64,000 nt of DNA from contig JBBHKE010002614.1 in the NCBI GenBank assembly GCA_037447655.1, positions 1 through 64,000 on the forward strand. The letters are read 5' to 3'. Positions 2,930-48,324 of the stretch are shown in pieces (the first letter of the stretch is position 1; every line of letters begins with the position of its first letter). The notes under the pieces were generated by a model. The model was not told the DNA's origin. It searched no databases and saw only the letters and a program-made list of their open reading frames with translations. Position numbers and translations under genes: made by a program. This DNA is from Zygnema cylindricum (Eukaryota > Streptophyta > Zygnematophyceae > Zygnematales > Zygnemataceae).

Positions 2930-3120
2930 CTGTGACTAAGGAAAAGAAATAGTTACCAGCCCAATTCACAGTTCCCGCAGAACCATAGACTAGGGGATGG
3001 AGAGTGGATTCCCACGAGGAGGGGAGACAAGCTGGATGCCAACACTAGCCGCACTGATTGCAGACCAAGATGTCGTGTTGCTGGGAGGACAGGTTACATG
3101 ATGAAGAACAGGAAGGGGGA
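2930..3120 (-). pseudogene. Gypsy-1 C-terminal PHD finger (decayed)
   Basis: Downstream of the integrase C-terminus the minus strand encodes a PHD-type C4HC3 pattern: CSSSC, then LVCNQCG, a stop, CWHPACL, and, one frame away, WFCGNCEL. The stop (TAG, about 3034) lies inside the zinc ligand cluster where Gln would fit, and a frameshift separates the last Cys pair. PHD fingers read histone H3 tails, usually the K4 methylation state. Gypsy-2 carries a clearer PHD finger at the same place. The first Cys pair is spaced by three residues instead of two. I am fairly sure of the domain; it is not functional here. Confidence 0.62.
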
Positions 3121-6360: not shown

Positions 6361-6364
6361 GTAT

Positions 6365-6660
6365 TTAACTAACCCACTTTAAGCCACGACCACTTCTGCC
6401 CAAGAAGGCAAACTGAGAATTTGATTGCACCCCTGTGTAGCCTGGACTCCCCTGAGTCCGTAGCAAAAATAATCACTGAAAACGGCCAACCAGGCGATAA
6501 GTTATGAGCCGACAAAAATGCCAATTTATACAAAGCTCTCTTAGAGAGAGGTGTCTGTCTACCAAATATTTCCTAAGTCCTAAATCCCTCTCACAACCCC
6601 TATCTACTAAAGTACGAACCAATCGTATTACTGTAAAGTACAGAAAGGTCTTGCTGTCAA
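6365..6660 (-). repeat. Inverted Copia-B LTR fragment inside Gypsy-1
   Basis: The reverse complement matches about 2230-2530: the gattggttcgtac block, the agagggattt block, the ctctctctaagagag hairpin, the cataacttatcgcc block and ctacggactcaggggagtcc. It lies between the Gypsy-1 methyltransferase and RT modules and separates them. Only the 3' part of the LTR is present, so it is a fragment and not a full solo LTR; I see no target duplication. Confidence 0.72.
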
Positions 6661-6663
6661 AAA

Positions 6664-7450
6664 TCATCCCAGCTGTTCGTTTATGTAGGCATGACTGTGA
6701 GGAAAAGAGACCAACGTGGGGAGGGCTCGGTGAGGAGTTCCGGGTGTGTTGCATTGGAAGAAAGGAGGACAATTTGGTTTGGTTACAGGTGTGGCTAGTC
6801 TCCCTTCTCCAAGTATCTGCTGTACGGAAGTCTGAGGGTCGGGGGTCTGTTTATCCAACAGTTGCCAGAGTACCGGAAGCGGGATCATATTGGTCCAATA
6901 TGCCCTGAGTCTGTGTGCTCGAGATCCCATCTGAGCAGCGTAAAAAACCAAAGGAGCTCCCAAAGTCCGGGTTACTTGTTTCCAGCTGTCTGCAACCTGT
7001 ATTCGCTTATCACCCCCCGGGTGAACGTTCTCCAGGATGTACCCCACTGGTGTGTCCTGGAGTTGCTGAATCCACGATATTATTGTAATCATTTGGTAGA
7101 AGGTGCTACTTCTGCAGTCTTGATGCCCTTTTCCTTATCCTGCGAGGGAGTATCCTTAACAAGGCCATCCTGCCACAACCAGATCAATTATGCCCAGATT
7201 GGCTAAATGGGGTGCCATAATGTTATCCATATTCTGGGGAAGACTCCGGTGAGCTTTAGAAATGGAAGACACTGGTAGTTGTTGAGGATATAGGCGGTGC
7301 AGCTGATGAAGGCGATGTTGGCTAACAGCCCGTGCTTCCAGCCAAATCTCCACGGCTGTATATGACTCCACCCGATATCCAGATTTCAAAAGTGCTTCCA
7401 AGTCGGAACTAATTCCTGAAAATAAAGATAAAATACGAATCCGGTGTCGG
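6664..7450 (-). pseudogene. Gypsy-1 cytosine-5 DNA methyltransferase domain
   Basis: Transfers a methyl group from S-adenosylmethionine to C5 of cytosine. In one minus-strand frame: motif I IRILSLFSGISSDLEALL (about 7390-7445), motif II YTAVEIW, IDLVVAGWPC (motif IV, catalytic Cys, about 7160), GYSLAG, motif VI PVGYILENVHPGGD (about 7030-7045) and motif VIII AAQMGSRAHRLRAYWTN. A conserved LPTLVSFPHSHAY block near 6680 matches Gypsy-2. TAA stops follow the PC and the SLAG motifs; the first replaces the conserved Gln of PCQG, as expected from CAA to TAA. It lies between protease and RT in the same strand order as in Gypsy-2, with quite divergent sequence. Certain as a C5 methyltransferase relic. 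Confidence 0.9.
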
Positions 7451-8505: not shown

Positions 8506-8599
8506 TGGTGGGGTTTTGGGTGCCTCCTCGTCTGGACGTTCAGCCAGAAACCGCTCAAACCAATCCTGAGTTCTCTGTTTGTCCTCTTCCAGTGATTTC

Positions 8600-13839: not shown

Positions 13840-15139
13840 GATGACAAATGTCTCGAAAGAAGAAGAAACGAAAGTAAACAAAACTCGCTTACGCCGGGCG
13901 GGCTTATAAAGTCAAAAACTCCTATCCCCTCTAATCCGAAGGAGACAGTTGCTTTTCAGTACTGTACTTATTCACGGGAAGTCTATAGCATTTGTTCCCT
14001 GAAAAACCACTGTTTTGATACAAGGAAGAGGTAGTTTTACTCCGGGGAGTTCACGCCAAAGCAAAAGAAACTACAAGCGAATACACATATGCACTACCAC
14101 GTGGACACATAGAAAATAAATAGGAATGGCTGTTTCAGATTTAACAATATCACCTTGACCACAGAAATAAAATATAAGATGGAAGATATAAAACATGGCG
14201 AAGCAAGCTTAACATACCCCGGCAATTTACGAGGACAAAGAGACAAGGGCGAACTCTCTCCGGATGGTAGTGTAAATAGGTATGGTACTCCTTCAACCCT
14301 AGGTGTCCACAGTTCGAAACCGACCGGACTCTTCTCAGTTTCAAGCAGCGAAAGATCAAAAAATCACCCAAAGGGACGATAGTGCCAACTACCAGCTCGA
14401 ACTATGATTTCCACAATGGACAGATCCAAAACAAAGATGGCAATAGAGTCAAACAAAACAAAGATTCTTCCCAAAAAAAGTTTGTTGGATTTTCTGAGGG
14501 TTTTCACAAGAGACAGTACTGAAAAGCAACCTGTCTTCTTCTGCCCCAAGTGCCTTATACAGCAAAAGCTTGTCCAGTTTCAGGTCCAAAAGTCAAACCT
14601 ACGCTATTAGCCAATGAGCGGCCACCAACGGCAACCGAACTGACATAAGACAAAATAATGTGTACTACACTTGGGGCAAAAAGTTGGACCTTTGACTACG
14701 GCTAGATCCGCGGCCTATAGTTATTATTTGTTCCATAGCTTTTAAGACAAAGTACTAAAAGGACACGGAAGTGCCAAGCTTTGACTTAATGTAATAAATG
14801 ACCCACTGGTTAGCTGAACCTGAACTGAATTGCTAGAGACAGCTAACAGCATAATCTAGATTACAGTCCGGAAGTCTAAGTGGCAATCCACAATGTACCC
14901 CCCACTGGGGCTGGTGGAAGCTAGTGCTATGTAACGGAACTGCGATCTTTCAGACGGTAGAACTTTGTCGTCCGGCCCCCGTTAGGCACGAAATAAAGTG
15001 CGTCTTGTTCCGTAGAGGAAATCCTATAATCCTTCCGGCTGGTTGTGCTTGCTTCTCCGAAGTCTGAGAACAGTACGGGTAGGAAAGGTACGGAAATCCT
15101 CGGTAAATAAAATGGGTGCGTGAAAAGCACTCGAGCTTG
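13840..15139. other. Unassigned, no gene seen
   Basis: No frame with recognisable protein similarity. It may include the 5' flank or LTR of the element that carries the ORF at 12139-13839 and, at its right end (about 14,880-15,139), sequence upstream of the truncated Copia-C RT. Confidence 0.3.
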
Positions 15140-17677: not shown

Positions 17678-18060
17678 ATGCGCATAAGCAAATAGAAATA
17701 AATACAAAATCAGAAGAAATAAAAACAACAAATCAATAATCCCAATATGCAACTTCCACACTAATAAAAGCTCAACCACAGCCAGGAAAAGTAGTTTGTG
17801 TCGTGAGAACGCGGTTGAAATCCACTCAAAAGGACGAGAAAGTGAAGGGAAACTGTGTAGGTCTTGGCCGAAGCTGTATAGATTAAGTTGTAAGGCTTTT
17901 CAAGATATTGATAATGTAATGGAAAACTAGACGCTTCACGCAAAGGCAGAAAATTGCCTCTAAGCTGTCCGGACAATTTCACAAATAAAAAGATGGCTGC
18001 AGAAAATCCTCAATACTGAAAATATATAAAACGAATAATTCCTGCACTTGAAAATTGTGT
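17678..18060. repeat. Direct repeat, copy 1 (partner 27206-27575)
   Basis: From gcataagcaaatagaaataa to attcctgcacttgaaa, this matches 27206-27575 in the same orientation with only scattered differences. The two copies bracket the whole left-arm Gypsy-2 element. Copy 2 is the right part of an element with 16-bp terminal inverted repeats; copy 1 lacks the left terminus. Copy 1 ends in its own small palindrome (cctgcac, 9 bases, gtgcagg, 18043-18066). Confidence 0.85.
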
Positions 18061-18935
18061 GCAGGAAATGATCCGAAATGAACTAAGTAACTAAAACTAC
18101 GCCTAGTGAAAACATGCCAATCAGAGTACAGCGTGCTATGTAAGTATTTGCGTCTAGTTTGGATTCGGCCAATAGGAGGCCAAAATCTTATGCCCTACGT
18201 TACAGATTCTATAACCTACGGATTAAAACCCTTCCTATCTACATGTGAACGCGTGAACCTCCAAATGGTCCACTACTTAAAATAGTCTAATCGCGTAGCT
18301 TCGTCAACACTGACAACCGATTTGTCTGTCATTTGCGTCAACGTTCCAGATGTGAAGTTACGAAAATTACATAATCAGCATCGACAGCCGGGATGCTACT
18401 CCACGCGAAATGATTAAAAAATGTCGTCGGCCGGGATTTCGGGAAATGAAATTAGGTACGGTAGGATCGAAGGTACGGTCCAATTTGTAGTCGCGGGAAT
18501 TTTGGGTAATGTAAGTCGTACGGTAAATGTAAAATAATCGAATCCATCGTCGACGGAAATCGCAGAAAATATATGTCGTACGGTAGGACCAGGAGTACGG
18601 TCCAAATCGTCATCACGAAAATTGCGGGAAATATAGGTCGTACGGTCGAAAATACATATCTACGGTCGACGCGTACGGCGATGTAAAAATGTATGGTCGA
18701 CGCGAACGCGAAATGTAGGTATGTACGGTCCTGTAAAACCCAAATAATACCCAAATACAAATTAGTGTGGCAGTTGCTCGTCCTAATCCATAAATATAAA
18801 CAATTACAATGGCCGACGAGATGCAGCATAACAGCTGTCGTGCATGTGTCAAACAACGTAAAAATGCATGCAATATTATCAGCTGTGCTCCACTTAAACC
18901 CAAACGATGAAAATATATTGTGAATGAAATAAGAC
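18061..18935 (-). other. Gypsy-2 left-arm 3' tail, probable LTR remnant
   Basis: Non-coding. The right part (about 18,640-18,935) precedes the PHD finger on the plus strand, that is, downstream in element orientation. Its segment with acagctgtcgtgcatgtgt resembles the Gypsy-3 tail (about 47,445-47,475), so it belongs to the same non-coding 3' region. No paired LTR was found. Confidence 0.4.
18415..18690. repeat. Degenerate ~62-bp minisatellite
   Basis: Four to five diverged units with the core words tcgtacggt and ggagtacggtccaa, followed by cgcgggaattttggg-type words. Unit starts lie near 18415, 18480, 18545 and 18603. The words gtacggtc and cggtcgacgcg recur to 18,700. Confidence 0.7.
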
Positions 18936-19064
18936 ATGAAAGAGAAAAATGAATAAATATAACAACAGGCAAGGTGAAAGAAAAAGAAAGGACAATGACT
19001 TAGCTGGTTATAGTTAGGTCGGTTTATTCCCCCCCCCCAGCTCTTTAGCCGGCAAAGAAGCTGG
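18936..19064 (-). other. Gypsy-2 left-arm sequence after the PHD finger, with polypurine-like G run
   Basis: Read on the minus strand, the frame ends in a run of G residues (c-tract at 19030-19038 on the plus strand) followed by aataaaccgacc. This is the likely plus-strand primer site. In the right arm the equivalent G run is exactly where Copia-A2 inserted (38333/45638). Confidence 0.55.
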
Positions 19065-19270
19065 CCAACACGATCGGTAGCTCGCGACATCTGTGGCAAA
19101 ACTAGTGACCATCCGGAACTGCCAACAATGGTGGCACCAAACACTCCATGTGAAACCTCTGATTGCAATGATCACAAAGTAACATGGTAGTTTCCCCGTC
19201 CGATCGATGACAAAAGGTACATGCTGTTGCCTCGGTAATCGACATCCGCATAGGATCCATATCCTACGAC
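19065..19270 (-). pseudogene. Gypsy-2 PHD finger (left arm)
   Basis: A full C4HC3 zinc signature: CTFCHRSDGETTMLLCDHCN, then FHMEC, LVPPLL and FCHRC. The order CxxC, CxxC, H, C, CxxC with the aromatic FH and the LxPPL segment is diagnostic of a PHD finger. One TAG precedes FCHRC, where PHD fingers have Trp (TGG to TAG). PHD fingers bind histone H3 tails, so this domain likely steers the integration complex or the element's products to chromatin, much as chromodomains do in other gypsy elements. It is read in a different frame from the upstream integrase tail. Homologous copies occur at 38110-38260 and 47700-47850. Confidence 0.82.
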
Positions 19271-19402
19271 AAATCTGGTAAGTAACATAGAGCACAATTC
19301 TTGGAGTGCTCTCGAAAAGTCCGTGTGTCCGCTCTTTGTTATCCAGCATTCCGTTTGGATGAACCTGGATGATCCGTAGGATGTGTGCAGAAACATCAGT
19401 GT

Positions 19403-20640
19403 TCAAAGTGTTGAAAGATTGTCTCCAAAGATAAACATAGTCTCCCACCCAATAGGGCTTCTGTTGCGGCCTGTAACCACCGCTGCGAGTGGTGGCAAAC
19501 CAAGTGTGTCCCGATGCTGGGCAATCTGCAAGTTATCAAAATCCATGGTCATTTCACGGGAAAAAAACAAATCACAACGAGTGATTTCTTCCAAAAAGAT
19601 AGTGTCAGACATGACTAAAAGTGGAAAGCTTGCAGCTTTCTGAATATTGCAACCGAGCAACGGTTGTCGCCCAAATAAAACATAGTACGGGCTGAAATTA
19701 GCCAGACTAGCTTGAACTGACATGCGATATCCCATGGTAATGTAACCGAGGGACTGGTTCCAAACCGAAATGTGTTTCTCTAAGCAATGCTTACGCAAGG
19801 CACGCTTAAATGTCTGGACAACCCGTTCAGCCAATCCATTGGCCTGGGGGTGATCCAGACTAGTACGGCGATGATCGATGAGAGCCTCATCAAGCATCTC
19901 TTAAAATTCTCCCCGAAATTTTGTACCTTGATCCGTAAGGACCTTGGCTGGGGCATCGTAACTCATAAAGACGTGTTTCTTAAAAGTTGCGGTGGTTAAC
20001 TTAGCTGTCTTGTGAGGCAGGGCTACGACTTTTACCCACTTATTGAAATTTTCGATCATAATCATGATGTATTGTTTCCCTTTACGTGAGATAAGAAAAG
20101 GTTCGACCAAATCGACCGACCATCGATAGAACAAACCCGTAATAGGTAGAGGTTGGAGCGTAGTCTGCCGGTTAGAAAAAGAAGTTCGGAGACGGTCACA
20201 GGTGGCACACTTGTGCAGAATAGCAGAGACATCAGTTTGCATTCCTGACCACCAATACCATGCTTGAACTAGAGTTAACGTTCGCTTGGTACCGTAGTGA
20301 CCAAGCTCAGTGTGAATCTGCTCAATGAGAGAAAGACGCTCGATAGGCCGTGGAACGTGCCTATGGCTTCCGTCTGCCAACAACCGAACTAAAGATCCCC
20401 CGAGCCAAAGGTAACTTTTGGCCCTCTTTTTCACTCGGTCTTCTTCGTCAGAGGTAATGCCGAACCTGAAGGTTTGGGAGGATAGGAAAAGAATGAGAGG
20501 CCCATCACGCCAAGGATCTGTGGCGGGACGGGGGTTCGGAATAGACGCCAGGCAGGAAGTAAGATAAGAACCCATTGATATGACGGGAACATCGTCGTCA
20601 TCGAAATCCTGTCGAACTTTGTTATGTGTTGTTTTGGGCA
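19403..20640 (-). pseudogene. Gypsy-2 integrase (left arm)
   Basis: HHCC zinc domain (HTELGHYGTKRT, then CATCDRLRTSF, about 20190-20320). Catalytic core: Asp in YRWSVDLVEPF, Asp in VLTDQGTKFRGEF (about 19930), Glu in GLAERVVQTFKRAL (about 19810-19850). All three DDE residues are present. A TAA at about 19898-19900 splits GEF from EMLDEALIDH; Gln fits the family. The part at 19403-19700 carries the C-terminal domain. A frame change leads to the PHD finger. The TAA is shared with the right arm. Confidence 0.92.
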
Positions 20641-21109
20641 AAGGATTTCGAGAAATTCCGTATGCGTTTAGACTAAGCAGACCTGGTCGGTGAATTATTT
20701 CAACTTCATATTCTTGTAAGATTAAAGCCCATCGGGCTAGCTTCCTGGAAAGCTTATCGTTTGTCATCAGCCAATATAAGGGCTGATAGCCAGTTAGGAG
20801 TATGAAAGGTTTTCGGTACAAATAATGGCGGAAGTGAACGACTCCCCAAATCGCGGCTTGACACTCTCCTTCGTAGCTACTATAATTTGATTCAGCCCGG
20901 TTATTGCTTCTACTCGCGTAAGCAACTACAGATTCCTCTCCGCTCAACTCTCTTTGTGTCAAAATGGCTGCGATTCCGGGTTTCCCAAAATCTATTTGAA
21001 GACAAAAAGGGAGTTTGTGATTGGGAGGACGAAGAATTGGAGCACTCGATAAAGCGGTTTTTAATTTTTGAAATGCGGAAATCTGATCGGGACCCCATAT
21101 AAACGCCAC
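20641..21109 (-). pseudogene. Gypsy-2 RNase H (left arm)
   Basis: Recognised by YASRSNNRAESNYSSYEGE and the surrounding gypsy connection pattern. The catalytic set is damaged: QIDFG keeps Asp and YEGECQA keeps Glu, but the third motif reads LLTGYQPL where TDHQPL is usual, and the fourth reads NAYGISRN where NADGLSR is usual. Two of four acidic residues are gone, in both arms, so the loss predates the arm duplication. Confidence 0.88.
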
Positions 21110-21858
21110 TTCTTTCTTGAGAAAGTCGTTTAACGGAGATGCGATGGTGCTAAAAATAGATAAAACCTGCGATAATAATTAGCAAGTCCGAGAAAGGCTC
21201 GCAGACTTGTGAGGTCCGTGGGAGCAGGCAATTTACTGATTGCCTCTACCTTTGCTTCGCGAGGATTGATCCCCTCAGCCGAGGTAAAATAGCCGAGGTA
21301 AGGCACTCCTTCAGCCCCAAAGATGCATTTCGTTGGATGACATTTTAATCCGACCTTTTTTAATTCAGTCAATACCCATTCGATGTGAGCAGCGTGCTCT
21401 TCGATAGTAGCCGAGGCAATGATGAGGTCATCGATGTAACATCTAGCAAACTTATAACCTCTAAGAACGGAGTCCATGACTTTTTGAAATACTGCTGGAG
21501 CATTTTTCAGTCCGAATGGCATTACGACCCATTCCCATCGGCCGTCGCTACCCCAAAAGGCATTTTTATGCCGGTCTTTTTCCTCTATCTCAATTTCATT
21601 AAATCCTTGACGGAGGTCAAGGATACTAAAATACTTTGCTCCGCCTACATGATCAAATATTTCTTCGGCAAGAGGCATGTGATGACGATCTTGAACCGTT
21701 CTTGCATTTAGTTCACGATAGTCACCACACATTCGACGTTCAGTAAAATTACCCTCGAAATCCTTTTTCCGAGGCATGACAGTGGGAGTTGCTAATGTGG
21801 AGTCTGACCGATAAATTAGGCCAGCTTCCTCTACTTCACCACATCGCTTGTCTACCAT
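21110..21858 (-). pseudogene. Gypsy-2 reverse transcriptase (left arm)
   Basis: 242 open codons (21130-21858) with RRMCGDYRELNARTV, FSILDLRQGFNEIEI, MPFGLKNAPAVFQKVMD, the intact active site CYIDDLIIAS (about 21430) and FLGLANYYRRF. The frame is lost just after YRRF, and the thumb-RNase H connection continues in another frame. The same frameshift exists in the right arm. Except for that break, the catalytic residues look sound, unlike Gypsy-1. Confidence 0.93.
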
Positions 21859-22479
21859 TTCCTATTCAATTTTTGACAAACGAAATGTTTTTGTTTAAAT
21901 ATCGGAGGTTAATCTTCGAGATCTATCGACATCTTATAAGCGGTGTGATGACCCAAATCATTCATAGAAAAGGCAAAGGCATCGATATTTCGTAAAACTA
22001 CGTCATTTAGTAACTCTTGTTTCGCCTTTGTTAGGTTGGTGCCAAATTTCCATTTAGGAGCATCGGAATTTCCGATTGTCATAGATTCAATAGCTTGTGC
22101 AAAGGCCAGCTTCTCATCTGCGATAAGCGTTTGACCTAACTCGTAAGCTAAAGGTGTCTGTTTAAGGCAATTAACCGAATGATTCCAACTGCGTGTTGGA
22201 AAAACAACACTCGAATGAGGAGTGGGTGGAATATGCATAGGACTTGTAGACTGGACAGCCGTGTATGCGAGAATAGACCTGGACATATGGCTAGGATTGA
22301 GGAAATCGTAGATAGAGATCTCTAGGATTGGTGGAATTGGAGAAGGAAAGAGGAAAAATTGAAATGTGGTCTCTTGGAGAGTGGGACGGAAAGATTTTCT
22401 TAGTGAAGCATCCCCCCCCCCAGCTGGTTGAGACGCATGTGCCTGAGAGTGGCGACCAGCTGTAAACTTGAGACCTAAA
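21859..22479 (-). pseudogene. Gypsy-2 methyltransferase-RT linker (left arm)
   Basis: Open (with the preceding methyltransferase motif X) from 22580 to 21909. It begins with low-complexity SLRKSFRPTL-type sequence and ends with VVLRNIDAFAFSMNDLGHHT, which is the family leader of gypsy RTs. A run of nine G residues on the minus strand lies at about 22410-22419. Confidence 0.75.
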
Positions 22480-23411
22480 ACAAAAGACAAAGCCTGAGGG
22501 TCCATGACACGACCTAATAAAGTGCATCTTTGACGTTCTATAATACCAGGAGCGGCCGTAGTGCCAGGAATAAAATGCATGAGGTGTTCGCGTTTCGTAG
22601 AGGTATGCTCTTCGAGCTCACCGGTATGAATGTTTCAGAGCATGCTAGGACCGTCATTAGAGAATGCATGTGAATGTGGGTAAGAAACTAAGGTAGGAAG
22701 CACCTTGGAAGGTTGACCTAGGACATTGACACTGAAATTAGGGGGACAGTCCTTTTGAATGCAAGGCTGCACCTTATGGAAAGGAAGAAGGGCGGTCTGA
22801 ATTTCTGTAGGAGGAGGACGAACTAACAAGTTGGCCTCACGGAGTCTACCAATATCGATCAGGTTCATCCATTTGGAGCGAACTCGATGTGCTAGTGAAC
22901 CATGGCGAGCCGCGTCAATAATAAAAGGCTGACCAATTAATTGTCCGATTCGTTGATAATCAGCTAAGACTGTAGATCTTCGATCATTATAGGCTGCGAA
23001 ATTTTCCAAGATATACCCCATAGGATGATCTAAAGTTTGTAGAAAATTCAAGATTCAAACCAATTTAAAAAATAATTTGGTGCACGGATCGGCTAATCCG
23101 AGGCCTTTTCCGGCCCTAGACACTCCTAGGCACTCCCATCCGCCAAAAACTAGATCGATTGGACCAATCTCCAATAAATGATGGTTGCCCACAATATGAA
23201 TGTTTTGTGTGAGGGCAGTATGCATATGCTCGTATAAAGATTTTGGTAACAAATGCGGGTATTGGGAATGCAACAAATTACAATGATGTAATTGTGCTTT
23301 CCTTGCTAACGGATCAATCTCAACTGAATAATAAAATCGGATTAATAATCCATTCCGCAAACATGCAGAAGGGAAGTGCCTATTCCAGCGAAAAAGGTCA
23401 AAAATCACCAA
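22480..23411 (-). pseudogene. Gypsy-2 cytosine-5 DNA methyltransferase domain (left arm)
   Basis: Order on the minus strand: LVIFDLF (motif I start), a scrambled glycine loop, YYSVEIDPLARKAQLHH (motif II), IGPIDLVFGGWECLG (motif IV; Cys kept, Pro replaced by Glu), SRAGKG, MGYILENF (motif VI), HGSLAHRVRSKWMN (motif VIII), LPTLVSYPHSHAF and IIERQRCTLLGRVMDPQAL (motif X-like). The last two resemble the DNMT3 C-terminus (PT..T block, LLGR..). The glycine loop AGIGTS is present only in a second frame, between two compensating shifts. A TGA at about 23052 separates motif IV from motif VI; CGA to TGA fits. Certain as a methyltransferase; dead as it stands. Confidence 0.9.
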
Positions 23412-23428
23412 TCCATTTGGATGAGGTT

Positions 23429-24319
23429 TTAATTGGACCGGATTCCAATAAATGGAAAGGACCCATAAGAGTCTGTAGGGACTAGGATTGTGGGAGAGAC
23501 CAGAGAAAGTGGAATTGACAAGGTTTGGTTATAGATTCGGTCAAATTCCCTTCTATCAATAAGAAATCCTGGGTCAAACAAAATTTCTGGTAAGTAAGAA
23601 CTATCAGGCAGAATTTCTTTTGTTAACAATGAATGAAATATTTCGGCCCCCACCGAATTCCCTGAAAATGCAGGTATAGATGTGGTTGAATTTGCCATAA
23701 TAGGCATGGGCTTCCTAGCGGAAATTAGCGGAATGCAGATTTTGTGTTCTGGGAAGTTAGTGGGCCTATAAGAAAATTTCTGATCATGCATGTCAACACT
23801 ACCCCCTACGCGAAATATAACGTCCTGTCCCACTAGGCATTCATAGTCACTACTTTTAGTGACTAGAGCGTGAACCGAGATTTCAGCAAAGTTTGTGGCT
23901 GTTCCGTTTTGGAACCTGAAAACAAGCGGTGCCTTAGTGATTCTTAGGACTGTCTCGGTTGTACGCGCTGATGTTAACAATTGAGTAGAAGTGGACTAAA
24001 GCTTGTCCAGAGTTAGACTCAGCTTCATTGCAAAGCTAGAGCCCAATATCACCGGCTTTGCACCATTATCCATGAGAGGCAGGGAAGGGGCTATACCATT
24101 GATCAATAATGCACTCTTCCCATTATCCAAAAAACTGATGTGAGGATCGAGGGACTTTCGTTCCTCTATGGAAATAGGCTGAATAGCAGCAAGATTTCTG
24201 TGCAGCTGAAGTGCTTGTAACGCGGCAGCTGCAGCTGAGCTATCGGAGGTAAAGGAGATAGGGGAGATTTTTGGTGAGTCAAAAATCATAATGAATAGAA
24301 TACACAAGCGTTCCTTCAC
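23429..24319 (-). pseudogene. Gypsy-2 aspartic protease region (left arm)
   Basis: Retropepsin signature LPLMDNGAKPVILGSSFAM (about 24030-24080): the DTG/DSG triad reads DNG. The second half of the fold shows YECLVGQDVIF (about 23820-23850), as in gypsy proteases. A TAG (23997-23999) divides the two halves. The C-terminal tail (LIDRREFDRIYNQTLSIPLS) leads by a frameshift into the methyltransferase. It should mature Gag-Pol. Confidence 0.78.
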
Positions 24320-24340
24320 GCGGTGTGCCTCGTGTATAGT

Positions 24341-26089
24341 TCAATCCACCATGTTGAGAGCTTCAACCGCAATGGATGAAGCGGTTTCGGGCAATGGAGG
24401 AGAAGGTTCTTTAGTGAATGACAAAGGAATGCGTGTGTTAGGGGTTTTACCGTCATGGCTTTGATCGGTCCAACCTTTGTGGAACGTAGCCTCTCGTTGG
24501 TGGATGGTGGAATCTCGTAAGATTCGACCTGCCAACATGGGCATGGGTAGAACAATGCGAGCCATGCCAGTAAATTGTGGTTTCATTTGAGTCATGAAGG
24601 CTGTGAATTGTTCCTTCATCATAGCCGCCATTTGCTCTTGCATTTCTAAACGCTCTCTCTCTCTTCGAGATACCTTAGGTGGAGTGGTGTCCTTCTCCTG
24701 TTCTTTAGTCGGTTGAAACGGTTTTGCAGATCGAGCGGGGATGCCACCATTTTTAATTTGGTTTTGATAGGAAAATTCCGGGTTCTTTATATGACAACGT
24801 TGGACATAGTGTCCGGTTTGCTTGCAATGTGTACAGGTAACGATTTTGTCTGGACACATTCGGGCATCATGCCCCGTCTTCCCACATTGGAAACATAAAC
24901 GGTTTTCAGGAGCAACAGGTGGGGTTCCCATGGCCGGGACTTTAGGCAGCTGGTTGTTAAGACAAGGATTGTTCCATGGTGGAACAATCGGTTCTTTCGG
25001 GACCGCTTTAGGTCGGTCATGGGCTTCCTACCAACAATTTTGCATTTCATATTCCACGGCATGCTGGGCGGCTTCGTCGAAAGTGAACTTCAAGCCGTAC
25101 GTTTGAGTCAAGTGACTTTGAATAAATTTCTTAGACTGACTCGGAAACTGTTCTACAAATTCCTCGACAGCTTCAACATCCGACATTAAGTCCGACAATG
25201 CTTCACGTAGAGCTTCCATACGAGCACGCATGGCAGGGGCGGTCACTCGTGATTTCCGTTCGAAGTTCATTAACTCACGAACTTGGTCAGGGTTTTGCAT
25301 ACGGTATTTCGCTTGCAACATGTCAAACATGACAGAGAGTGGATTCAATATAGGGATCGTCATCGCTAGTCGTGCTGGAAATCCAGCACGTGCGGCTATA
25401 GCAAACTATTGCGGTATATCATCAACTGCTGCTGTAATAACATCGCCGTTGAGATCAAAGACTTTCGGGATAGCCGGTTGATAAGGAATTTCTGGTTGTC
25501 CTATAATAGCAGGACTATCAGCAAACGGTGGAGAAAACTTCGTCATCGCAAGTACTGAATCATACTTGCCGGAATAAAGAGTAAGGGTTAAACCGCGGAG
25601 GTAACGGCCTAAAAGAGAGAAAGCGGCCCGTAGGTCGAACTGATCTTGGTACCGAAATGCAAGATCACGCATTTCGGTATCGAATAGCATCCGGAAATGC
25701 AATAAAGTCATGGTGTCCTTCATTCTTGCAAAACAGAAATGAAGGCGACCCCCTCCCTCGGATGTGGAAGCCATTTCCAATAATGGAATGCTAGGGGATA
25801 AAAATGGATTGGTAATTTGTGGAAACCAAAAAGATAATGAATTGGAATCCGACTCGTCAAGGGAATCGTGGTCAGATTCCTCTTCGAAAAATGTGGAAGA
25901 GACTGATGATAAGAAAGATACCGAGGTGAGAGTAGATTGAACCGAAGGGGAAATTTCACCTGAGATATTTAGGATTGGATGGTCCAAAAGACTAGATAAA
26001 TCTGATGGTCCGGATTCAGTGGGCCTAAACGAAGCTGACGATCGGGTGGTTCCGACATGATAATCGAGATTATCCCAATCAGTGGGCAT
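24341..26089 (-). pseudogene. Gypsy-2 gag with two zinc knuckles (left arm only)
   Basis: One frame from ATG near 26089 (MPTDWDNLDYHV), interrupted by TAG at about 25403 and 25025 and TGA at 24338, each explicable by C-to-T. The N-terminal part is acidic and Ser-rich. The middle (RELMNFERKSRVTAPAMRAR) is probably capsid. Two CCHC knuckles follow, CFQCGKTGHDARMC and CTHCKQTGHYVQRC (24790-24900), then a basic segment (RRERERLEMQEQM). Gag packages element RNA. The right arm lacks gag altogether. Confidence 0.88.
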
Positions 26090-27002
26090 AAAATATGATA
26101 ACCCCAAATGATGACTAGATAACAAAATTGATCAATCCGATATGCTTCAAATGCCACGCCACACCACTCTTTGTCCAATCAGCCAAAAAACCTCTAACAG
26201 GGCCTCGGTGGCCAGATCTATAAAGAAGCCGTATTACCAAAACCTTATACCCTGCAAACAAGGGGACAAGGATGAAGCGCTAGATCTATAAAGGCAAATA
26301 ACTTTCTATCCAATCACTCTCAAGTGCAGATCTAAAGCAGCACAATCCACGAAAGAGCTAACCACTACCTCCAACAATAAGATCTATGGAAGAAATCCCA
26401 CACCGGGCAAAGCAAACTCAGCCAAGGCCACTCAGGGCAAGATACCCAGCAGGGAAAGCTGGACAAATGCAATGCTCAATACAAGTGGATCAACACTAAT
26501 CCACTCCAAACACGATCCCTCTATACGATCAACCGACTACCTTAGCACGCGCCTGTACCCGCAAGGCATCTTGATACTTACATAACACTCTTAGCAATCT
26601 GGTGATTGCGAAGGGTGAACTACGGTTGTTCGCTACAACCAAAGTTTTGTAGAGCTCCCAAGAACGGATCCGCTCCACTAACTCCACTCATTAGTGAAGT
26701 ATGTCTCAATCTCAGCAAACGATGCCCATTATATATAACAAAGAAAATGGGAAAAACAAAAACCAAATACTTAAGTTAGCGGAGTATATCGTTGGCCGAA
26801 AATTGGCTAATAAGATAAAATGTCAACTAACAAGCAAAAATTATATATGAAAAGCTAGTTATAGATTTTTGTAGAAATGTATCTATAAATATATATTTTT
26901 GATTATTTTTTTAAATATTTTTGTTTTTGTTTTTTTCTTTAGATAAAAAGAAAACCGAAATTGAAATAAAAACAAACAAGGGAGAAAAGAAAATACGACA
27001 AT
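26090..27002 (-). other. Gypsy-2 5' leader or LTR candidate
   Basis: Non-coding and AT-rich. It contains a repeated gatctataaa word (26216, 26283, 26380 as a variant), a tatatat stretch near 26733, and a long T-rich/A-rich stretch at 26840-26985. It lies immediately upstream of gag in element orientation. It does not match the tail at 18,061-18,935, so the LTR pair cannot be shown. Confidence 0.4.
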
Positions 27003-27575
27003 TTTCAAGTGCAGGAATACTAAGCCGATGGATGACCACTAGGCCCTACGGTCAATTTATATTCCTTGCAGGAGTTATCAGGATAATCTGAATTTATACT
27101 TAAATAAAACAAATCAAAACATAAACAAATGAGAAATACAAACAACAAACTAATAATGACAATATGCCCGACACTGATGATGTTTGAGATAACCAAACTT
27201 AAAAGGTGTGCATAAGCAAATAGAAATAAATACAAAATCACAAGAAATAAAAACAACAAATCAATAAACCCAACATGCAATTCCACACTAATAAAAGCTC
27301 AACCACAGCCAAGAAAAGAAGTTTGTGTCGTGAGAACGCGGTCGAAATCCACTCAAAAGGACGAGAAAAGTGAACGGAAACCGTGTAGGTCTTGGCCGAA
27401 GCTGTATACATTAAGTTGTAAGGCTTTACAAGATATTGATAATGTAATGGAAAACTAGACGCTTCACACAAAGGTAGAAAATTGCCTCTAAGCTGTCCAG
27501 ACAATTTCACAAATAAAAAGATGGCTGCAGAAAATCCTCAATACTGAAAATATATAAAACGAATAATTCCTGCAC
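27003..27575. mobile_element. TIR-bounded non-coding element at the palindrome spacer
   Basis: Starts tttcaagtgcaggaat and ends attcctgcacttgaaa: perfect 16-bp terminal inverted repeats about 570 bp apart. The interior has no credible protein. Its right 370 bp are repeated at 17678-18060. The right arm of Gypsy-2 starts at its right terminus. Size and structure fit a small non-autonomous DNA transposon; a target duplication is not clear. Confidence 0.55.
27206..27575. repeat. Direct repeat, copy 2 (partner 17678-18060)
   Basis: Same orientation and nearly the same sequence as 17678-18060; differences include single-base changes and one or two indels (for example acgagaaaagtgaacgg versus acgagaaagtgaaggg). 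Confidence 0.85.
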
Positions 27576-27576
27576 T

Positions 27577-27886
27577 TGAAATTCCGCTAATTTCCGCTAG
27601 GAAGCCCATGCCTATTATGGCAAATTCAACCACATCCATACCTGCATTTTCAGGGAATTCGGTGGGGGCCGAAATATTTCATTCATTGTCAACAGAAGAA
27701 ATTCTGCCCGATAGTTCTTACTTACCAGAAATTTTGTTTGACCCAGGATTTCTTATTGATAGAAGGGAATTTGACCGAATCTATAACCAAACCTTGTCAA
27801 TTCCACTTTCTCTGGTCTCTCCCACAATCCCAGTCCCTACAGACTCTTATGGGTCCTTTCCATTAATTGGAATCCGGTCCAATTAA
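27577..27886 (+). pseudogene. Gypsy-2 right arm: protease tail, abruptly 5'-truncated
   Basis: Starts ttccgctaatttccgctagg, which is the reverse complement of about 23,711-23,731 in the left arm, and runs in the protease C-terminal frame (MPIMANSTTSIPAFSGNS) to a TAA at 27884. Gag, zinc knuckles and the DNG active site are missing. The truncation point abuts the terminus of the TIR element at 27575. Confidence 0.9.
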
Positions 27887-27894
27887 AACCTCAT

Positions 27895-28835
27895 CCAAAT
27901 GGATTGGTGATTTTTGACCTTTTTCGCTGGAATAGGCACTTCCCTTCTGCATGTTTGCGGAATGGATTATTAATCCGATTTTATTATTCAGTTGAGATTG
28001 ATCCGTTAGCAAGGAAAGCACAATTACATCATTGTAATTTGTTGCATTCCCAATACCCGCATTTGTTACCAAAATCTTTATACGAGCATATGCATACTGC
28101 CCTCACACAAGACATTCATATTGTGGGCAACCATCATTTATTGGAGATTGGTCCAATCGATCTAGTTTTTGGCGGATGGGAGTGCCTAGGAGTGTCTAGG
28201 GCCGGAAAAGGCCTCGGATTAGCCGATCCGTGCACCAAATTATTTTTTAAATTGGTTTGAATCTTGAATTTTCTACAAACTTTAGATCATCCTATGGGGT
28301 ATATCTTGGAAAATTTCGCAGCCTATAATGATCGAAGACCTACAGTCTTGGCTGATTATCAACGAATCGGACAATTAATTGGTCAGCCTTTTATTATTGA
28401 CGCGGCTCGCCATGGTTCACTAGCACATCGAGTTCGCTCCAAATGGATGAACCTGATCGATATTGGTAGACTCCGTGAGGCCAACTTGTTAGTTCGTCCT
28501 CCTCCTACAGAAATTCAGACCGCCCTTCTTCCTTTCCATAAGGTGCAGCCTTGCATTCAAAAGGACTGTCCCCCTAATTTCAGTGTCAATGTCCTAGGTC
28601 AACCTTCCAAGGTGCTTCCTACCTTAGTTTCTTACCCACATTCACATGCATTCTCTAATGACGGTCCTAGCATGCTCTGAAACATTCATACCGGTGAGCT
28701 CGAAGAGCATACCTCTACGAAACGCGAACACCTCATGCATTTTGTTCCTGGCACTACGGCCGCTCCTGGTATTATAGAACGTCAAAGATGCACTTTATTA
28801 GGTCGTGTCATGGACCCTCAGGCTTTGTCTTTTGT
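27895..28835 (+). pseudogene. Gypsy-2 cytosine-5 DNA methyltransferase domain (right arm)
   Basis: Same motif order and same lesions as the left arm: LVIFDLF at about 27903, the AGIGTS loop out of frame at about 27930-27947, YYSVEIDPLARKAQ, GPIDLVFGGWECLG (about 28153-28190), TGA at 28258, MGYILENF, AHRVRSKWMN, LPTLVSYPHSHAF and ERQRCTLLGRVMDPQAL (about 28773-28820). A few residues differ from the left arm (for example QDIHIV versus QNIHIV and NDRRPTV versus NDRRSTV). Sharing the two frameshifts and the TGA shows that the arms were copied after inactivation. Confidence 0.9.
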
Positions 28836-29406
28836 TTTAGGTCTCAAGTTTACAGCTGGTCGCCACTCTCAGGCACATGCGTCTCAACCAGCTGGGGGGG
28901 GGGATGCTTCACTAAGAAAATCTTTCCGTCCCACTCTCCAAGGGACCACATTTCAATTTTTCCTCTTTCCTTCTCCAATTCCACCAATCCTAGAGATCTC
29001 TATCTACGATTTCCTCAATCCTAGCCATATGTCCAGGTCTATTCTCGCATACACGGCTGTCCAGTCTACAAGTCCTATGCATATTCCACCCACTCCTCAT
29101 TCGAGTGTTGTTTTTCCAACACGCAGTTGGAATCATTCGGTTAATTGCCTTAAACAGACACCTTTAGCTTACGAGTTAGGTCAAACGCTTATCGCAGATG
29201 AGAAGCTGGCCTTTGCACAAGCTATTGAATCTATGACAATCGGAAATTCCGATGCTCCTAAATGGAAATTTGGCACCAACCTAACAAAGGCGAAACAAGA
29301 GTTACTAAATGACGTAGTTTTACGAAATATCGATGCCTTTGCCTTTTCTATGAATGATTTGGGTCATCACACCGCTTATAAGATGTCGATAGATCTCGAA
29401 GATTAA
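28836..29406 (+). pseudogene. Gypsy-2 right arm: methyltransferase-RT linker
   Basis: Continues the open frame to a TAA at 29404. It contains the G run at 28892-28900 and the RT leader VVLRNIDAFAFSMNDLGHHT. Almost identical to 21909-22479. Confidence 0.75.
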
Positions 29407-29456
29407 CCTCCGATATTTAAACAAAAACATTTCGTTTGTCAAAAATTGAATAGGAA

Positions 29457-30185
29457 ATGGTAGACAAGCGATGTGGTGAAGTAGAGGAAGCTGGCCTAAT
29501 TTATCGGTCAGACTCCACATTAGCAACTCCCACTGTCATGCCTCGGAAAAAGGATTTCGAGGGTAATTTTACTGAACGTCGAATGTGTGGTGACTATCGT
29601 GAACTAAATGCAAGAACGGTTCAAGATCGTCATCACATGCCTCTTGCCGAAGAAATATTTGATCATGTAGGCGGAGCAAAGTATTTTAGTATCCTTGACC
29701 TCCGTCAAGGATTTAATGAAATTGAGATAGAGGAAAAAGACCGGCATAAAAATGCCTTTTGGGGTAGCGACGGCCGATGGGAATGGGTCGTAATGCCATT
29801 CGGACTGAAAAATGCTCCAGCAGTATTTCAAAAAGTCATGGACTCCGTTCTTAGAGGTTATAAGTTTGCTAGATGTTACATCGATGACCTCATCATTGCC
29901 TCGGCTACTATCGAAGAGCACGCTGCTCACATCGAATGGGTATTGACTGAATTAAAAAAGGTCGGATTAAAATGTCATCCAACGAAATGCATCTTTGGGG
30001 CTGAGGGAGTGCCTTACCTCGGCTATTTTACCTCGGCTGAGGGGATCACTCCTCGCGAAGCAAAGGTAGAGGCAATCAGTAAATTGCCTGCTCCCACGGA
30101 CCTCACAAGTCTGCGAGCCTTTCTCGGACTTGCTAATTATTATCGCAGGTTTTATCTATTTTTAGCACCATCGCATCTCCGTTAA
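29457..30185 (+). pseudogene. Gypsy-2 right arm: reverse transcriptase
   Basis: 242 codons matching the left arm with one visible residue change near the end (EGITPREAK versus EGINPREAK). The active site CYIDDLIIAS lies at about 29875-29905. The frame ends at the same frameshift after YYRRF as in the left arm. Confidence 0.93.
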
Positions 30186-30205
30186 ACGACTTTCTCAAGA
30201 AAGAA

Positions 30206-31544
30206 GTGGCGTTTATATGGGGTCCCGATCAGATTTCCGCATTTCAAAAATTAAAAACTGCTTTATCGAGTGCTCCAATTCTTCGTCCTCCCAATCACAA
30301 ACTCCCTTTTTGTCTTCAAATAGATTTTGGGAAACCCGGAATCGCAGCCATTTTGACACAAAGAGAGTTGAGCGGAGAGGAATATGTAGTTGCTTACGCG
30401 AGTAGAAGCAATAACCGGGCTGAATCAAATTATAGTAGCTACGAAGGAGAGTGTCAAGCCGCGATTTGGGGAGTCGTTCACTTCCGCCATTATTTGTACC
30501 GAAAACCTTTCATACTCCTAACTGGCTATCAGCCCTTACATTGGCTGATGACAAACGATAAGCTTTCCGGGAAGCTAGCCCGATGGGCTTTAATCTTACA
30601 AGAATATGACGTTGAAATAATTCACCGACCAGGTCTGCTTAGTCTAAACGCATACGGAATTTCTCGAAATCCTTTGCCCCGAACAACAGATAACAAAGTT
30701 CGACAGGATTTCGATGACGACGATGTTCCCGTCATGTCAATGGGTTCTTATCTTACTTACTGCCTGGCGTCTATTCCGAACCCCCGTCCCGCCACAGATC
30801 CTTGGCGTGATGGGCCTCTCATTCTTTTCCTATCCTCCCAAACCTTCAGGTCTGGCATTACCTCTGACGAAGAAGACAGAGTGAAAAAGAGGGCCAAAAG
30901 TTACCTTTGGCTCGGGGGATCTTTAGTTCGGTTGTTGGCAGACGGAAGCCATAGGCACGTTCCACGGCCTATCGAGCGTCTTTCTCTCATTGAGCAGATT
31001 CACACTGAGCTTGGTCACTACGGTACCAAGCGAACGTTAACTCTAGTTCAAGCATGGTATTGGTGGTCAGGAATGCAAACTGATGTCTCTGCTATTCTGC
31101 ACAAGTGTGCCACCTGTGACCGTCTCCGAACTTCTTTTTCTAACCGGCAGACTACGCTCCAACCTCTACCTATTACGGGTTTGTTCTATCGATGGTCGGT
31201 CGATTTGGTCGAACCTTTTCTTATCTCACGTAAAGGGAAACAATACATCATGATTATGATCGAAAATTTCAATAAGTGGGTAAAAGTCGTAGCCCTGCCT
31301 CACAAGACAGCTAAGTTAACCACCGCAACTTTTAAGAAACACGTCTTTATGAGATACGATGCCCCAGCCGAGGTCCTTACGGATCAAGGTACAAAATTTC
31401 GGGGAGAATTTTAAGAGATGCTTGATGAGGCTCTCATCGATCATCGCCGTACTAGTCGGGATCACTGAACGAAGAGTGGAGACATTTAAAAGTGCCTTGC
31501 GTAAGCATTGCTTAGGAAAACACATTTCGGTTTGGGACGAGTCC
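30206..31544 (+). pseudogene. Gypsy-2 right arm: RNase H and integrase, interrupted by Copia-A1
   Basis: 402 codons open to TAA 31412-31414, equal to the left arm apart from about a dozen residue changes. RNase H shows the same losses (LLTGYQPL, NAYGISRN). Integrase keeps the HHCC domain and the first two catalytic Asp. After the shared TAA the sequence lacks about 20 bases around the third catalytic residue (the stretch encoding PQANGLA), so the arm has decayed further on its own. It stops at AGTCC (31540-31544), the target duplication of Copia-A1, and resumes at 37610. Confidence 0.9.
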
Positions 31545-35181: not shown

Positions 35182-36547
35182 ATGTTGGATAATGGCTCTG
35201 TTCTCGCTGGTGCAAGCGTGACTCCTACTGGGAGTGGATCAGAGCCAAGTGAGAATGCTTATAACATTAAACAGGTTATGGGCCCACCGCCCAAATTGCC
35301 TATTTTTGACGGAACTGACTACTTATACAGGGAAGATATGTTGAGCTCATATTTCAAAGAGAGGGACTTGTCACCCATTGTGGAAGGAACAGCGGATGTG
35401 ACCGCGCCGGATTGGAGAAAGAAGAATCTCCAGTGCCTCAACGTCTTCAAGCAGTCAATAACAAAAGACTTGGTAATGTCGTATCTTGAGATGAAAAAAG
35501 CCTCTGAAGTTTGGTTTAGTGTACGTGCTATGTATCTTCAGCTAGATGTTACTGTGCAGACTAACATAGCCACTCAGATTTTTGAATTTAAGTATTCTGG
35601 AGGTAGTTTGTCAGATCATTGCCATGCTATGAAAAGGTTGTTCCTTTAGAGTAGTAGTGCAGGTGCGGACTTTTCACCACCTCAGCTGGCTATATTGTTG
35701 ATGAGAACTTTGCCCGATAAATATAAGGGAGCCATGGATAGGCTTAGGGCTATTCCACAACGTCAATGGAACATAGCATTAGCAATTCAACTTATTTTGA
35801 GTGAAGAACCTAACCAGATGTCACAAAGAGGTAGTAGTAAGTCTGTTCAGGCACTAGCTAACCAGTTTTCGAATTCTAAGATTAGCACTGGAAGTGGTAG
35901 AGGTAGTGGTCCTAGAAGGTCACCTTTGACATGCTATTACTGTGATGAAAAATGGCATGTGTTCAGAATGTGGAATGCATACAAAAGAGCGAAAGCCACA
36001 CGAAATTTTTGCTCTGGATGGGACGAAAGCCGAGTTCCTTCTCAATCAGGTAGTCGTCCAACTGCTCTGTTCAACGAACTTAAGGAGGAGGACGTGAGCA
36101 GCTTTCCCGACAACAGTGAAAAGAAATACTTTGCGATGGCAAAAGCAACGGAAGACGTGGAGGAACACGAATGGATTATAGACTCCGGCGCATCTGCCCA
36201 CATGTGCCGCAATCGCCATCTATTTGAGAGTATTCAATCTATTTCACCCATCAAAATTTATTTTAGTGATGATACGTTTGTTGAGTTGAAAGCAAAGGGG
36301 ATGGTGTCACTTATGTTGAATGTAGATGGAAAACCTGTGAAAAGGGTCTTGGAAGATGTGTTGCATGTCCCAGCTTTTAAAATAATGTTTTTCTCTACGT
36401 CAGTGGTAGAAAAGGAAGGTTTTCAAACTATATTTGAGAATGGGAAGAAGTCAGTGTGTAAGAATGGGAAAATAGTTGCAGAGGGATTTGCTGGAGGAAA
36501 CAATTTGTATCGGTTGAGTCTTGCAAATGATAATGACAATGATATTA
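35182..36547 (+). pseudogene. Second copia gag-protease (different family) inside Copia-A1
   Basis: ATG at 35182. Gag domain with VMGPPPKLPIFDGTDYLY, DWRKKNLQCLNVFKQSI and LMRTLPDKYKGAMDRLR, the usual UBN2-like copia gag pattern. The zinc knuckle is damaged: CYYCDEKWHVFRMW lacks the last Cys. The protease active site is intact (WIIDSGASAHMC, about 36172-36207), with the C-terminal LEDVLHVPAFK pattern. One TAG at 35647 breaks the gag (Gln would fit). The 3' LTR of Copia-A1 begins within its final codons. It differs from the Copia-A gag, so Copia-A1 is a composite. Confidence 0.88.
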
Positions 36548-37604: not shown

Positions 37605-38333
37605 AGTCCCTCGATTACATTACCATGGGATATCCAATGTCAGTTCAAGTTAGTCTAGCTAATTTCAACCCGTATTATGTTTTATTTTGGCGATAACCGT
37701 TGCTCGGTCGCAATATTTTGAAGGCTGCAAGCTTTCCACTTCCGCTGATGTCTGACACTATTTTTTTGGAAGAACCCACTCGTCGTGCTTTTCTTTTTGC
37801 ACGTGAAGTGCCCATGGCTTTTGATAACCTGCAGATTGTGTAGCATCGGGACACACTTCGGTTTGCCACCACTCGAAGCGGCAATTACAGGCCGCAACAG
37901 AAGCCCTATCGGGTGGGAGATTATGTTTATCTTCGCAAGCAATCTTTCGACACTTTGGACACTGTTGTTTTTGCACACATCCTACCGATCATTGAGGTGG
38001 ATCCAAACGGAATGTTGGGATTAGAAGGAGCGGACACACGGACTTTTCGAGAGACTCCAATAATTGTGCTCTATGTTACTTACCATATTTGTCGCAAGAT
38101 ATCGATCCTATTCATTTGCCGATTACGGAGGCGACGGCATGTACGTTTTGTCATCGATCAGACGGGGAAACTACCATGTTACTTTGTGATCATAGCAATA
38201 AGGGGTTTCACATGGAGTGTTTGGTGCCACCATTGTTGGCATGTTCCTCATTTTCACTGGTTTTGCCACGGATCTCGAGAGCTTCCGGTCGTGTTGGCCA
38301 GCTCCTTTGTCGGCTAAAGAGCTGGGGGGGGGG
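37605..38333 (+). pseudogene. Gypsy-2 right arm continued: integrase C-terminus and PHD finger
   Basis: After the AGTCC duplication the sequence resumes with LDYITMGYPMSVQVSLANFN and the integrase C-terminal part (to about 37,990), then the PHD finger at about 38,128-38,260: CTFCHRSDGETTMLLC, DHSNKGFHMEC, LVPPLL. Here the fourth Cys is Ser (CDHS), and the last pair is damaged. The segment ends in a run of G residues (38325-38333), where Copia-A2 inserted. Confidence 0.88.
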
Positions 38334-47447: not shown

Positions 47448-48324
47448 AGCTGTTGTGCATGAGCATACATGCATCATACCGAATAAGCGTTGCCAAGAAT
47501 GTATAGACCGCACATATGTATGCTAAAACCAGAGGGCAAAGAATATATACCAACAGAAATTTTTATGAATCAGCTCAAGAAAACAAAGAAACAAATATAA
47601 GTACAACGACAAGTTTAGTAGGTAAAGAGGGAAAAAGGATGGAATCCCCCCCCCCCGGGCTCCTTAGCCTGCAGGGGAGCTGGGAAGGACAGCCGGTAGG
47701 TCGCGACATCCGTGGCAAACCACTGTCCAACCGGAATAACATGCAAAGGTAGGACCAAGCACTCCATGTGAAATCCTAGATTGCAATAGTCATAGAAAAG
47801 CATCGTCGTTTCTCCGTCAGACCGCCGATAGAACTGACACTCGGTGGCCTCGCTTATCGGCATCCGCCACGGATACATACTGTGGGAGAGATCACGTAGG
47901 TAGCTAGGAGCACAATTTTTCGAATATTCTCGCAAATTCCACATGTTGGTCCCTTGTAGGCTTAATAATCCATTGGAGTCGATTTTGGTGATCCTCAATA
48001 TGTGAGACCAGACATCCGTGTCGATTGTGTCAAATGTTTGCCGACGCGAATATACAAAGTCCCCCACCCGATAGGGTTTTTGTTGTGGCTGGTAACTGCC
48101 ACTGCGAGTTGTTGCAAACCGTAAGGAGTCGTGATGTTGAGTAATCTGCAAGTTTTCAAAGGCCATTGGAATTTCCCTAACAAAAAGCAAAGCCCGGTTG
48201 GTTATTTCTTCCAAAAAAAAAGAATGTGACATAAGCGGCAAAGGAAAACTAGCTGCTTTCAATATATTTCTACCGAGCAGTGGCTATCGACCAAATAACA
48301 CATAATAGGGACTGAAATATGCGG
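47448..48324 (-). pseudogene. Gypsy-3: integrase C-terminus, PHD finger and tail
   Basis: An open frame of 215 codons (47615-48262) reads SFFLEEITNRALLFVREIPM, an integrase tail with YQPQQKPYRVGDFVYSRRQT, then a PHD-like segment: ECQFYRRSDGETTMLFYDYCNLGFHMECLVLPL. Several zinc ligands are changed (CTFC to CQFY, CDHC to YDYC), but the Trp before the final Cys pair is kept (GQWF) and a one-base loss shifts the final CxxC. The tail (47448-47650) contains a C run (47647-47658). It is truncated at 48325 by a Copia-A LTR. This is the third independent copy showing integrase followed by PHD. Confidence 0.8.

Follow-up and report, generated by a model that had tools for sequence, protein, structure and literature searches.

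Chromoviruses are Gypsy retrotransposons whose integrase carries a chromodomain, and in the host enzymes DNMT3A and DNMT3B a methyltransferase (MTase), the writer, is combined with an ADD domain, a PHD-like reader of histone H3. A MTase-bearing Gypsy element has been published from Klebsormidium nitens, KnitGypsy-Dnmt3 (de Mendoza et al. 2018, PMC5890265), and the same paper reports retroelement-borne DNMTs from dinoflagellates. In the present work, a stretch of 64,000 nucleotides from Zygnema cylindricum (contig JBBHKE010002614.1, hereafter the window) was analysed, in which two Gypsy elements, Gypsy-1 and Gypsy-2, carry both a C5-MTase and a PHD finger. Judged from sequence, these are dead copies that belong to two families within a Ty3/Gypsy lineage found in green algae and streptophytes. 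The predicted Pol of this lineage reads (DNMT3-like C5-MTase)-reverse transcriptase-RNase H-integrase-(PHD finger), the bracketed domains being variable, with gag and presumably a protease upstream.

The features of Gypsy-2 in the window are the following, with the independent E-value (iE) given for profile matches.

17679..27581, minus strand: Gypsy-2 copy 1, decayed long terminal repeat (LTR) retrotransposon (domain order and LTR match)
27207..27581, minus strand: 5' LTR, portion matching the 3' LTR (95.7% over 376 columns)
23432..26131, minus strand: upstream frame in five pieces, gag-like with putative protease (open frames and Pfam)
within 24344-25027, minus strand: CCHC zinc knuckle (Pfam, 25.5 bits versus a cut-off of 20.8)
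22461..23366, minus strand: C5-MTase (GWECLG loop, ILENF, AHRVR; iE 6e-69)
21262..21768, minus strand: reverse transcriptase (RT; profile and Pfam)
20705..21097, minus strand: RNase H (profile and Pfam)
19643..20362, minus strand: integrase (profile and Pfam)
19081..19233, minus strand: PHD finger (iE 4e-18; C4HC3 ligands present)
17679..18053, minus strand: 3' LTR, matched portion, apparently shortened (LTR pair alignment)
27581..31465, plus strand: Gypsy-2 copy 2, partial and inverted, nearly identical to copy 1 (45 substitutions in 3906 columns)
27949-28854, plus strand: MTase of copy 2 (iE 7e-70)
29547-30053, plus strand: RT of copy 2 (profile)
30218-30610, plus strand: RNase H of copy 2 (profile)
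30953-31486, plus strand: integrase of copy 2 (profile)
38128-38244, plus strand: PHD finger of a Gypsy-2 tail fragment at about 37605-38364 (iE 3e-13; Pfam PF00628)
47618..48283, minus strand: tail fragment with integrase C-terminus (by eye) and PHD finger in a single open frame of 222 amino acids
47714-47848, minus strand: PHD finger of this third tail copy (iE 3.6e-12)

The order RT-RNase H-integrase with H2C2 and rve, together with a direct LTR pair of which the 3' LTR is shortened, identified copy 1 as a Ty3/Gypsy element. In the window, RT, RNase H and H2C2 exceeded the Pfam cut-offs, and rve in this decayed copy was slightly under (31.8 versus 32.6 bits). By eye, the 5' LTR extends to about 27010, its end being the inverse of its own start; the flanks of copy 1 are rearranged. 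A chromovirus was excluded, as no chromodomain was found at E 0.01 in five relatives or at E 0.1 in ten window pieces. A DIRS element was excluded as well, since an rve integrase is present and the window pieces and the five relatives gave no tyrosine-recombinase match.

The original prediction gave the range 22480-28835 for an element with gag, protease, C5-MTase, RT, RNase H, integrase and a PHD finger, the last placed at 19065-19270 and 38128-38260. Within that range lie two MTase copies that face in opposite directions, and the PHD finger falls outside it. RT, RNase H and integrase were recovered by profiles and Pfam, the C5-MTase was confirmed in both copies, and the PHD finger was found in copy 1 and at 38 kb, with an additional copy at 47 kb. 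Of the upstream part, the CCHC zinc knuckle was recovered; no Pfam gag or protease domain was detected in the four upstream Gypsy-2 pieces scanned besides the knuckle piece, nor in the K. nitens relative P0037 (relatives are given as P numbers), and the relative P0048 showed only a weak protease match (17.0 bits versus a cut-off of 24.3). The Gypsy-2 protease is presumed by position alone.

Copy 2 stops inside the integrase. The two arms of the inverted 3.9 kb duplication (19850-23734 versus 27581-31465) have diverged less than the two LTRs of copy 1, and the duplicated segment abuts the LTR end of copy 1 at 27581. The duplication could stem from fold-back or self-integration at a later time, or it could be an effect of the assembly. 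The elements are extensively decayed: the five pieces of the upstream frame are separated by in-frame stops, the MTase frame of copy 1 has two TGA stops, MTase motif I (FFAGIGTSLL) is readable only in another frame, and the PHD finger of copy 1 has a stop where relatives have Trp. Because of these stops and frameshifts, the window copies are considered dead and incapable of acting.

A search with the MTase returned one relative, and this pair retrieved eight proteins, seven of them close (P0002-P0008). The MTase profile was built from these seven; the window copy, used to find and align them, was not included. The profile E-values ruled out a chance resemblance of either the MTase or the PHD finger. 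The motifs I-IV-VI-VIII-X were in unrearranged order and the catalytic Cys was present, as in DNMT3-type enzymes (motif I of Gypsy-2 lying in the other frame). DNMT3 was also the nearest enzyme by sequence, using a profile of eight that included the window copy, and by fold, using a model of P0002. The AlphaFold model of the P0002 MTase (469 residues) had a mean pLDDT of 79.2, with 307 residues at 90 or above, and the broken window MTase gave a mean of 39. In the structure search, phage and giant-virus C5-MTases from BFVD were weaker in E-value than DNMT3 from PDB. Motif counts were made on 62 rows, profile matches spanning fewer than 250 residues being excluded. The catalytic Cys and Glu were each retained in 58 of these rows, with sequences only 23-54% identical to P0002 (29 compared).

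In the Pfam check proposed with the original prediction, PF00145 was weak on the decayed Gypsy-2 copy (E 2.3e-4; 21.2 bits, just below the 22-bit cut-off). The 38 kb copy carries the C4HC3 ligands and passes PF00628 (26.6 versus 24 bits), and the 47 kb copy is below it (19.3 bits). The best solved-structure matches of the finger were CHD4, KMT2D/C, Drosophila Lid (KDM5), WSTF, KDM5B/A, ATXR5, DPF3, BAZ2 and UHRF1. Many fingers of these types recognise the N-terminus of H3 when K4 or R2 is unmodified. In ING and BPTF fingers a tryptophan completes the H3K4me3 cage. The cage-Trp position was Gly in 87 of 90 PHD fingers. The matched finger types and this Gly point to a reader of unmodified H3, which the retroelement PHD finger would then be. 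An acidic residue within four positions before the first Cys was found in 55 of the 90, which is not decisive.

A query with the RNase H-integrase region gave 415 protein matches, of which 120 were listed; all counts of relatives refer to these. By our own profiles, the MTase was present in 62, the PHD finger in 96 and both in one predicted protein in 53. Among the listed relatives of at least 1600 amino acids (n = 59), the corresponding numbers were 51, 50 and 45. The Pfam cut-offs for both domains were passed by P0036 (MTase 33.2, PHD 33.7 bits) and P0050 (38.1 and 46.0 bits). P0040 passed for the PHD finger (41.5 bits) and not for PF00145 (18.7 versus 22); P0012, whose MTase is cut off, passed for the PHD finger only (44.7 bits), and P0016 for the MTase only, with no PHD match. 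Two proteins of Haematococcus lacustris (P0072 and P0121) are stop-free and carry both domains. Because the MTase and the PHD finger stand together in stop-free relatives, the originally proposed combination, in which a single polyprotein holds a writer of methyl marks and a putative reader of chromatin, is real, and it is frequent among the listed relatives. Self-methylation, camouflage and targeted integration, which the original prediction also put forward, are plausible roles of the pair.

The MTase occupies one of two slots, before RT (window and Klebsormidium) or between RNase H (RNH) and integrase (INT). With the MTase abbreviated as MT, the second slot was represented among the 120 by 45 proteins of the order RT-RNH-MT-INT-PHD, 3 RNH-MT-INT-PHD and 5 RT-RNH-MT-INT, and the first by 5 MT-RT-RNH-INT-PHD, which is the order of both window elements, and 4 MT-RT-RNH-INT. 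No MTase was found in 32 RT-RNH-INT-PHD, 6 RNH-INT-PHD, 13 RT-RNH-INT and 4 RT-RNH-PHD-INT proteins; 3 had other orders. By eye, many of the 32 RT-RNH-INT-PHD frames begin inside pol, where an upstream MTase would go unseen, and the start of P0014 resembles the last MTase motif. Of the 22 proteins without a called PHD finger, 17 had no VGDxVY-like integrase-tail motif, the frame being cut off or the tail diverged. A cluster of cysteines is present at the C-terminus of P0128, and the end of P0016 is, by eye, divergent and rich in cysteine.

Copies lacking either domain had been named in the original prediction as evidence against it, and they do occur to some extent. K. nitens P0048 (2087 amino acids) has no MTase, with a pol 66-72% identical to that of the MTase-bearing P0037, and Closterium P0068 has an integrase tail apparently without a PHD finger (by eye). 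These two and the polyproteins without catalytic Cys described below indicate that, in the wider group, either domain can be missing or dispensed with.

In the Pol tree, P0119 and P0120 were omitted and one of the 118 others was dropped for having fewer than two domains; support was assessed by SH-aLRT only. P0009, P0012, P0057, P0083, P0093, P0101, P0107, P0112, P0116 and P0130 were excluded from the MTase tree and counts, and P0009 was put back into the tree to serve as an outgroup. Monophyly of type A was not rejected (p-AU 0.47). Strict monophyly of type B was rejected (p-AU 0.003), probably owing to MTase-only rows, P0008 among them, that are placed within it. The ancestral MTase slot is left open by these trees. 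Viral contig scans with P0036 and with the alignment A3 returned no relative.

A second kind of pairing was observed in P0125, P0126 and P0127, long Gypsy proteins with a protease, a Dam-type N6-adenine methyltransferase (43.0, 41.7 and 47.1 bits, respectively; cut-off 28.1), RT, RNase H, a PHD finger and an integrase. The Dam-type enzyme is located between protease and RT, and the PHD finger follows RNase H and precedes the integrase. Another member of this clade, P0124, has a PHD finger and no Dam match, so that three of the four proteins carry the enzyme. Since the Dam enzyme is unrelated to the C5 type and the PHD finger is placed differently, this pairing looks separate, and methyltransferase and PHD finger seem to have been brought together on more than one occasion.

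Gypsy-2 shares with KnitGypsy-Dnmt3 a Dnmt3-type MTase inside a Gypsy Pol. P0037 (KFL_009030040) of K. nitens has the order MT-RT-RNH-INT like the window, a PF00145 score of 33.5 bits and 46.7% pol identity to Gypsy-2, and is probably the published element. The main text of PMC5890265 does not mention a PHD finger. P0037 is marked as partial and ends just before the point at which the relatives P0053 and P0084 (about 75% identical) have their PHD finger. One may therefore well be present in the K. nitens element. The repeats of KnitGypsy-Dnmt3 are DIRS-like according to a legend in PMC5890265, whereas Gypsy-2 has an ordinary direct LTR pair, no search for split repeats having been made. The dinoflagellate elements SymbioDIRS-Dnmt3 and SymbioLINE-Dnmt likewise bear a DNMT, and domain order varies between families, but they have a tyrosine recombinase or a LINE endonuclease rather than an rve integrase (PMC5890265). 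As in chromoviruses, a chromatin-reader domain is placed at the C-terminus of a Gypsy integrase (PMC6338049), with a PHD finger here in place of the chromodomain. A Gypsy-type integrase with a C-terminal PHD finger is also found in Ginger1-9_HM; however, Ginger1 elements are DNA transposons with Ulp1, and a methyltransferase is not mentioned in the relevant part of PMC2836005. DNMT3A/B share the MTase fold predicted for P0002, but they are host enzymes, and the retroelement PHD finger, whose nearest matches are CHD4/KMT2/KDM5-type fingers, is placed at the far end of Pol. In the accessible part of the open-licence literature, with subscription journals and Repbase outside this scope, no description of a Gypsy element with both domains was found; the MTase-bearing Gypsy itself had already been published.

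The best overall explanation, held with somewhat better than even confidence, is a Gypsy Pol in which the MTase methylates the cDNA and the PHD finger tethers the integrase. Inside the particle, the MTase would remain associated with the RT/RNase H module and carry out de novo methylation of the new double-stranded cDNA; the copy would thus reach the genome already marked. The PHD finger of the integrase would recognise the tail of H3, K4 probably being unmodified, and tether integration to nucleosomes in a chromodomain-like manner; the pair would thus send copies to quiet chromatin and mark them host-like. In both C5 orders the MTase borders the RT-RNase H module, which favours methylation of fresh cDNA, an idea of de Mendoza et al. 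(PMC5890265), and the position of the PHD finger on the integrase favours target choice. In the type with the MTase between RNase H and integrase, both domains might share one mature protein. The sequence-based support consists of domain identity, order, co-occurrence in stop-free relatives and catalytic residues conserved in most. A broader version, that green-algal and early-streptophyte Gypsy elements repeatedly equipped Pol with a writer of DNA methylation together with a reader of histone tails (C5 in two slots, Dam separately), combining a self-written epigenetic state with a choice of chromatin, is put forward more tentatively.

Several observations weigh against this explanation. In ordinary C5-MTases a Pro precedes the catalytic Cys, and Glu-Cys was found in place of Pro-Cys in 37 of the 62 rows, Gypsy-2 included. 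The Cys is lost in four rows forming a single clade (P0056, P0059, P0066 and P0073) and unrecognisable in four of the nine short polyproteins (P0083, P0093, P0101 and P0116), which form one clade with P0117 in the Pol tree; of the other short rows, P0130 has the Cys, P0012, P0107 and P0112 end before it, and P0057 does not span the site. In these eight polyproteins, from two algal clades, catalysis is thus dispensable. Both groups, which include Pleodorina P0059 and Tetrabaena P0083 and P0101, retain an MTase remnant and a PHD finger. Proteolysis may separate the MTase from the PHD finger. A single MTase capture is not proven, given the p-AU of 0.47 for type A and only two outgroup rows. The observed/expected CpG ratio was 0.92 for Gypsy-2, 0.65 for Gypsy-1 and 1.08 for 50-60 kb of the window, and by its value Gypsy-2 bears little trace of long CpG methylation, which speaks against strong CpG methylation of this element in the host.

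The loss of the catalytic motif in two clades that keep the MTase remnant and the PHD finger, together with the Glu-Cys replacement, would suit an MTase that is mainly a non-catalytic DNA- or RNA-binding module, or acts on RNA like DNMT2, the PHD finger mattering mainly, for targeting. SymbioLINE-Dnmt, moreover, failed to methylate DNA in yeast (PMC5890265). Nevertheless, retention of Cys and Glu each in 58 of 62 rows despite low identity, and the close match of the modelled fold to DNMT3, speak against this less likely reading. Less probable still is that the MTase, unlinked to the PHD finger, shields the element against editing by the host or nuclease defence, or protects the cell against DNA viruses, as conceived by Morozov et al. 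(PMC6338049). The MTase-less sibling P0048 and the 32 RT-RNH-INT-PHD frames are compatible with it, though many of these frames start inside pol; the pairing of a non-homologous adenine MTase with a PHD finger in P0125-P0127 hints, on the contrary, that the pair matters. Finally, the window is crowded with nested, broken elements, and the two domains might have come from separate nested elements or host genes. This artefact is considered refuted: single predicted proteins carry both domains, Gypsy-1 repeats the order within the window, and integrase tail and PHD finger share the open frame at 47618-48283.

The window as a whole is a mosaic composed of simple repeats and of pieces of Gypsy and Copia type, and Rfam and tRNA scans of it gave no match. 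Its other features are listed below.

2900-14000, minus strand: Gypsy-1, second Gypsy family with MTase and degraded PHD finger
6655..7428, minus strand: C5-MTase of Gypsy-1 (iE 9e-62; GWPC*GYS loop, ILENV, AHRLR)
5205-5708, minus strand: RT of Gypsy-1 (profile and Pfam)
4644-5036, minus strand: RNase H of Gypsy-1 (profile and Pfam)
3536-4252, minus strand: integrase of Gypsy-1 (profile and Pfam)
3015..3104, minus strand: degraded PHD finger of Gypsy-1 (iE 2.8e-5)
35650-36558: Pol_BBD in a Copia-type polyprotein piece (Pfam)

With a pol identity of 48.6% to Gypsy-2 over 533 columns, Gypsy-1 was assigned to a different family with the same domain order; its nearest listed relative is P0016 (73.8% pol identity). 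Between 31551 and 51535, the Copia-type piece is surrounded by repeated pieces that form several families and are 66-100% alike in register. Repeats of 9-12 bases form long arrays, strongly skewed between the strands, at 57877-58155 and 61736-62263.

PHD 'regulators' have been reported as at least 9-fold more numerous in the repeat-rich Zygnema cf. cylindricum (PMC9915684). PHD-bearing Gypsy proteins could be the cause of this excess, and PHD and DNMT counts of algal genomes may be inflated by transposons. The published DNMT oddity of a Klebsormidium Gypsy element becomes a wider lineage with stop-free members in Haematococcus lacustris, in which the methyltransferase is tied to an integrase with a chromatin-reader finger. 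This provides testable material on why transposons would carry the silencing mark of the host. If the broader version above is true, the pairing would be a retroelement counterpart of the ADD-MTase pairing of DNMT3; it may help these elements to manage chromatin.

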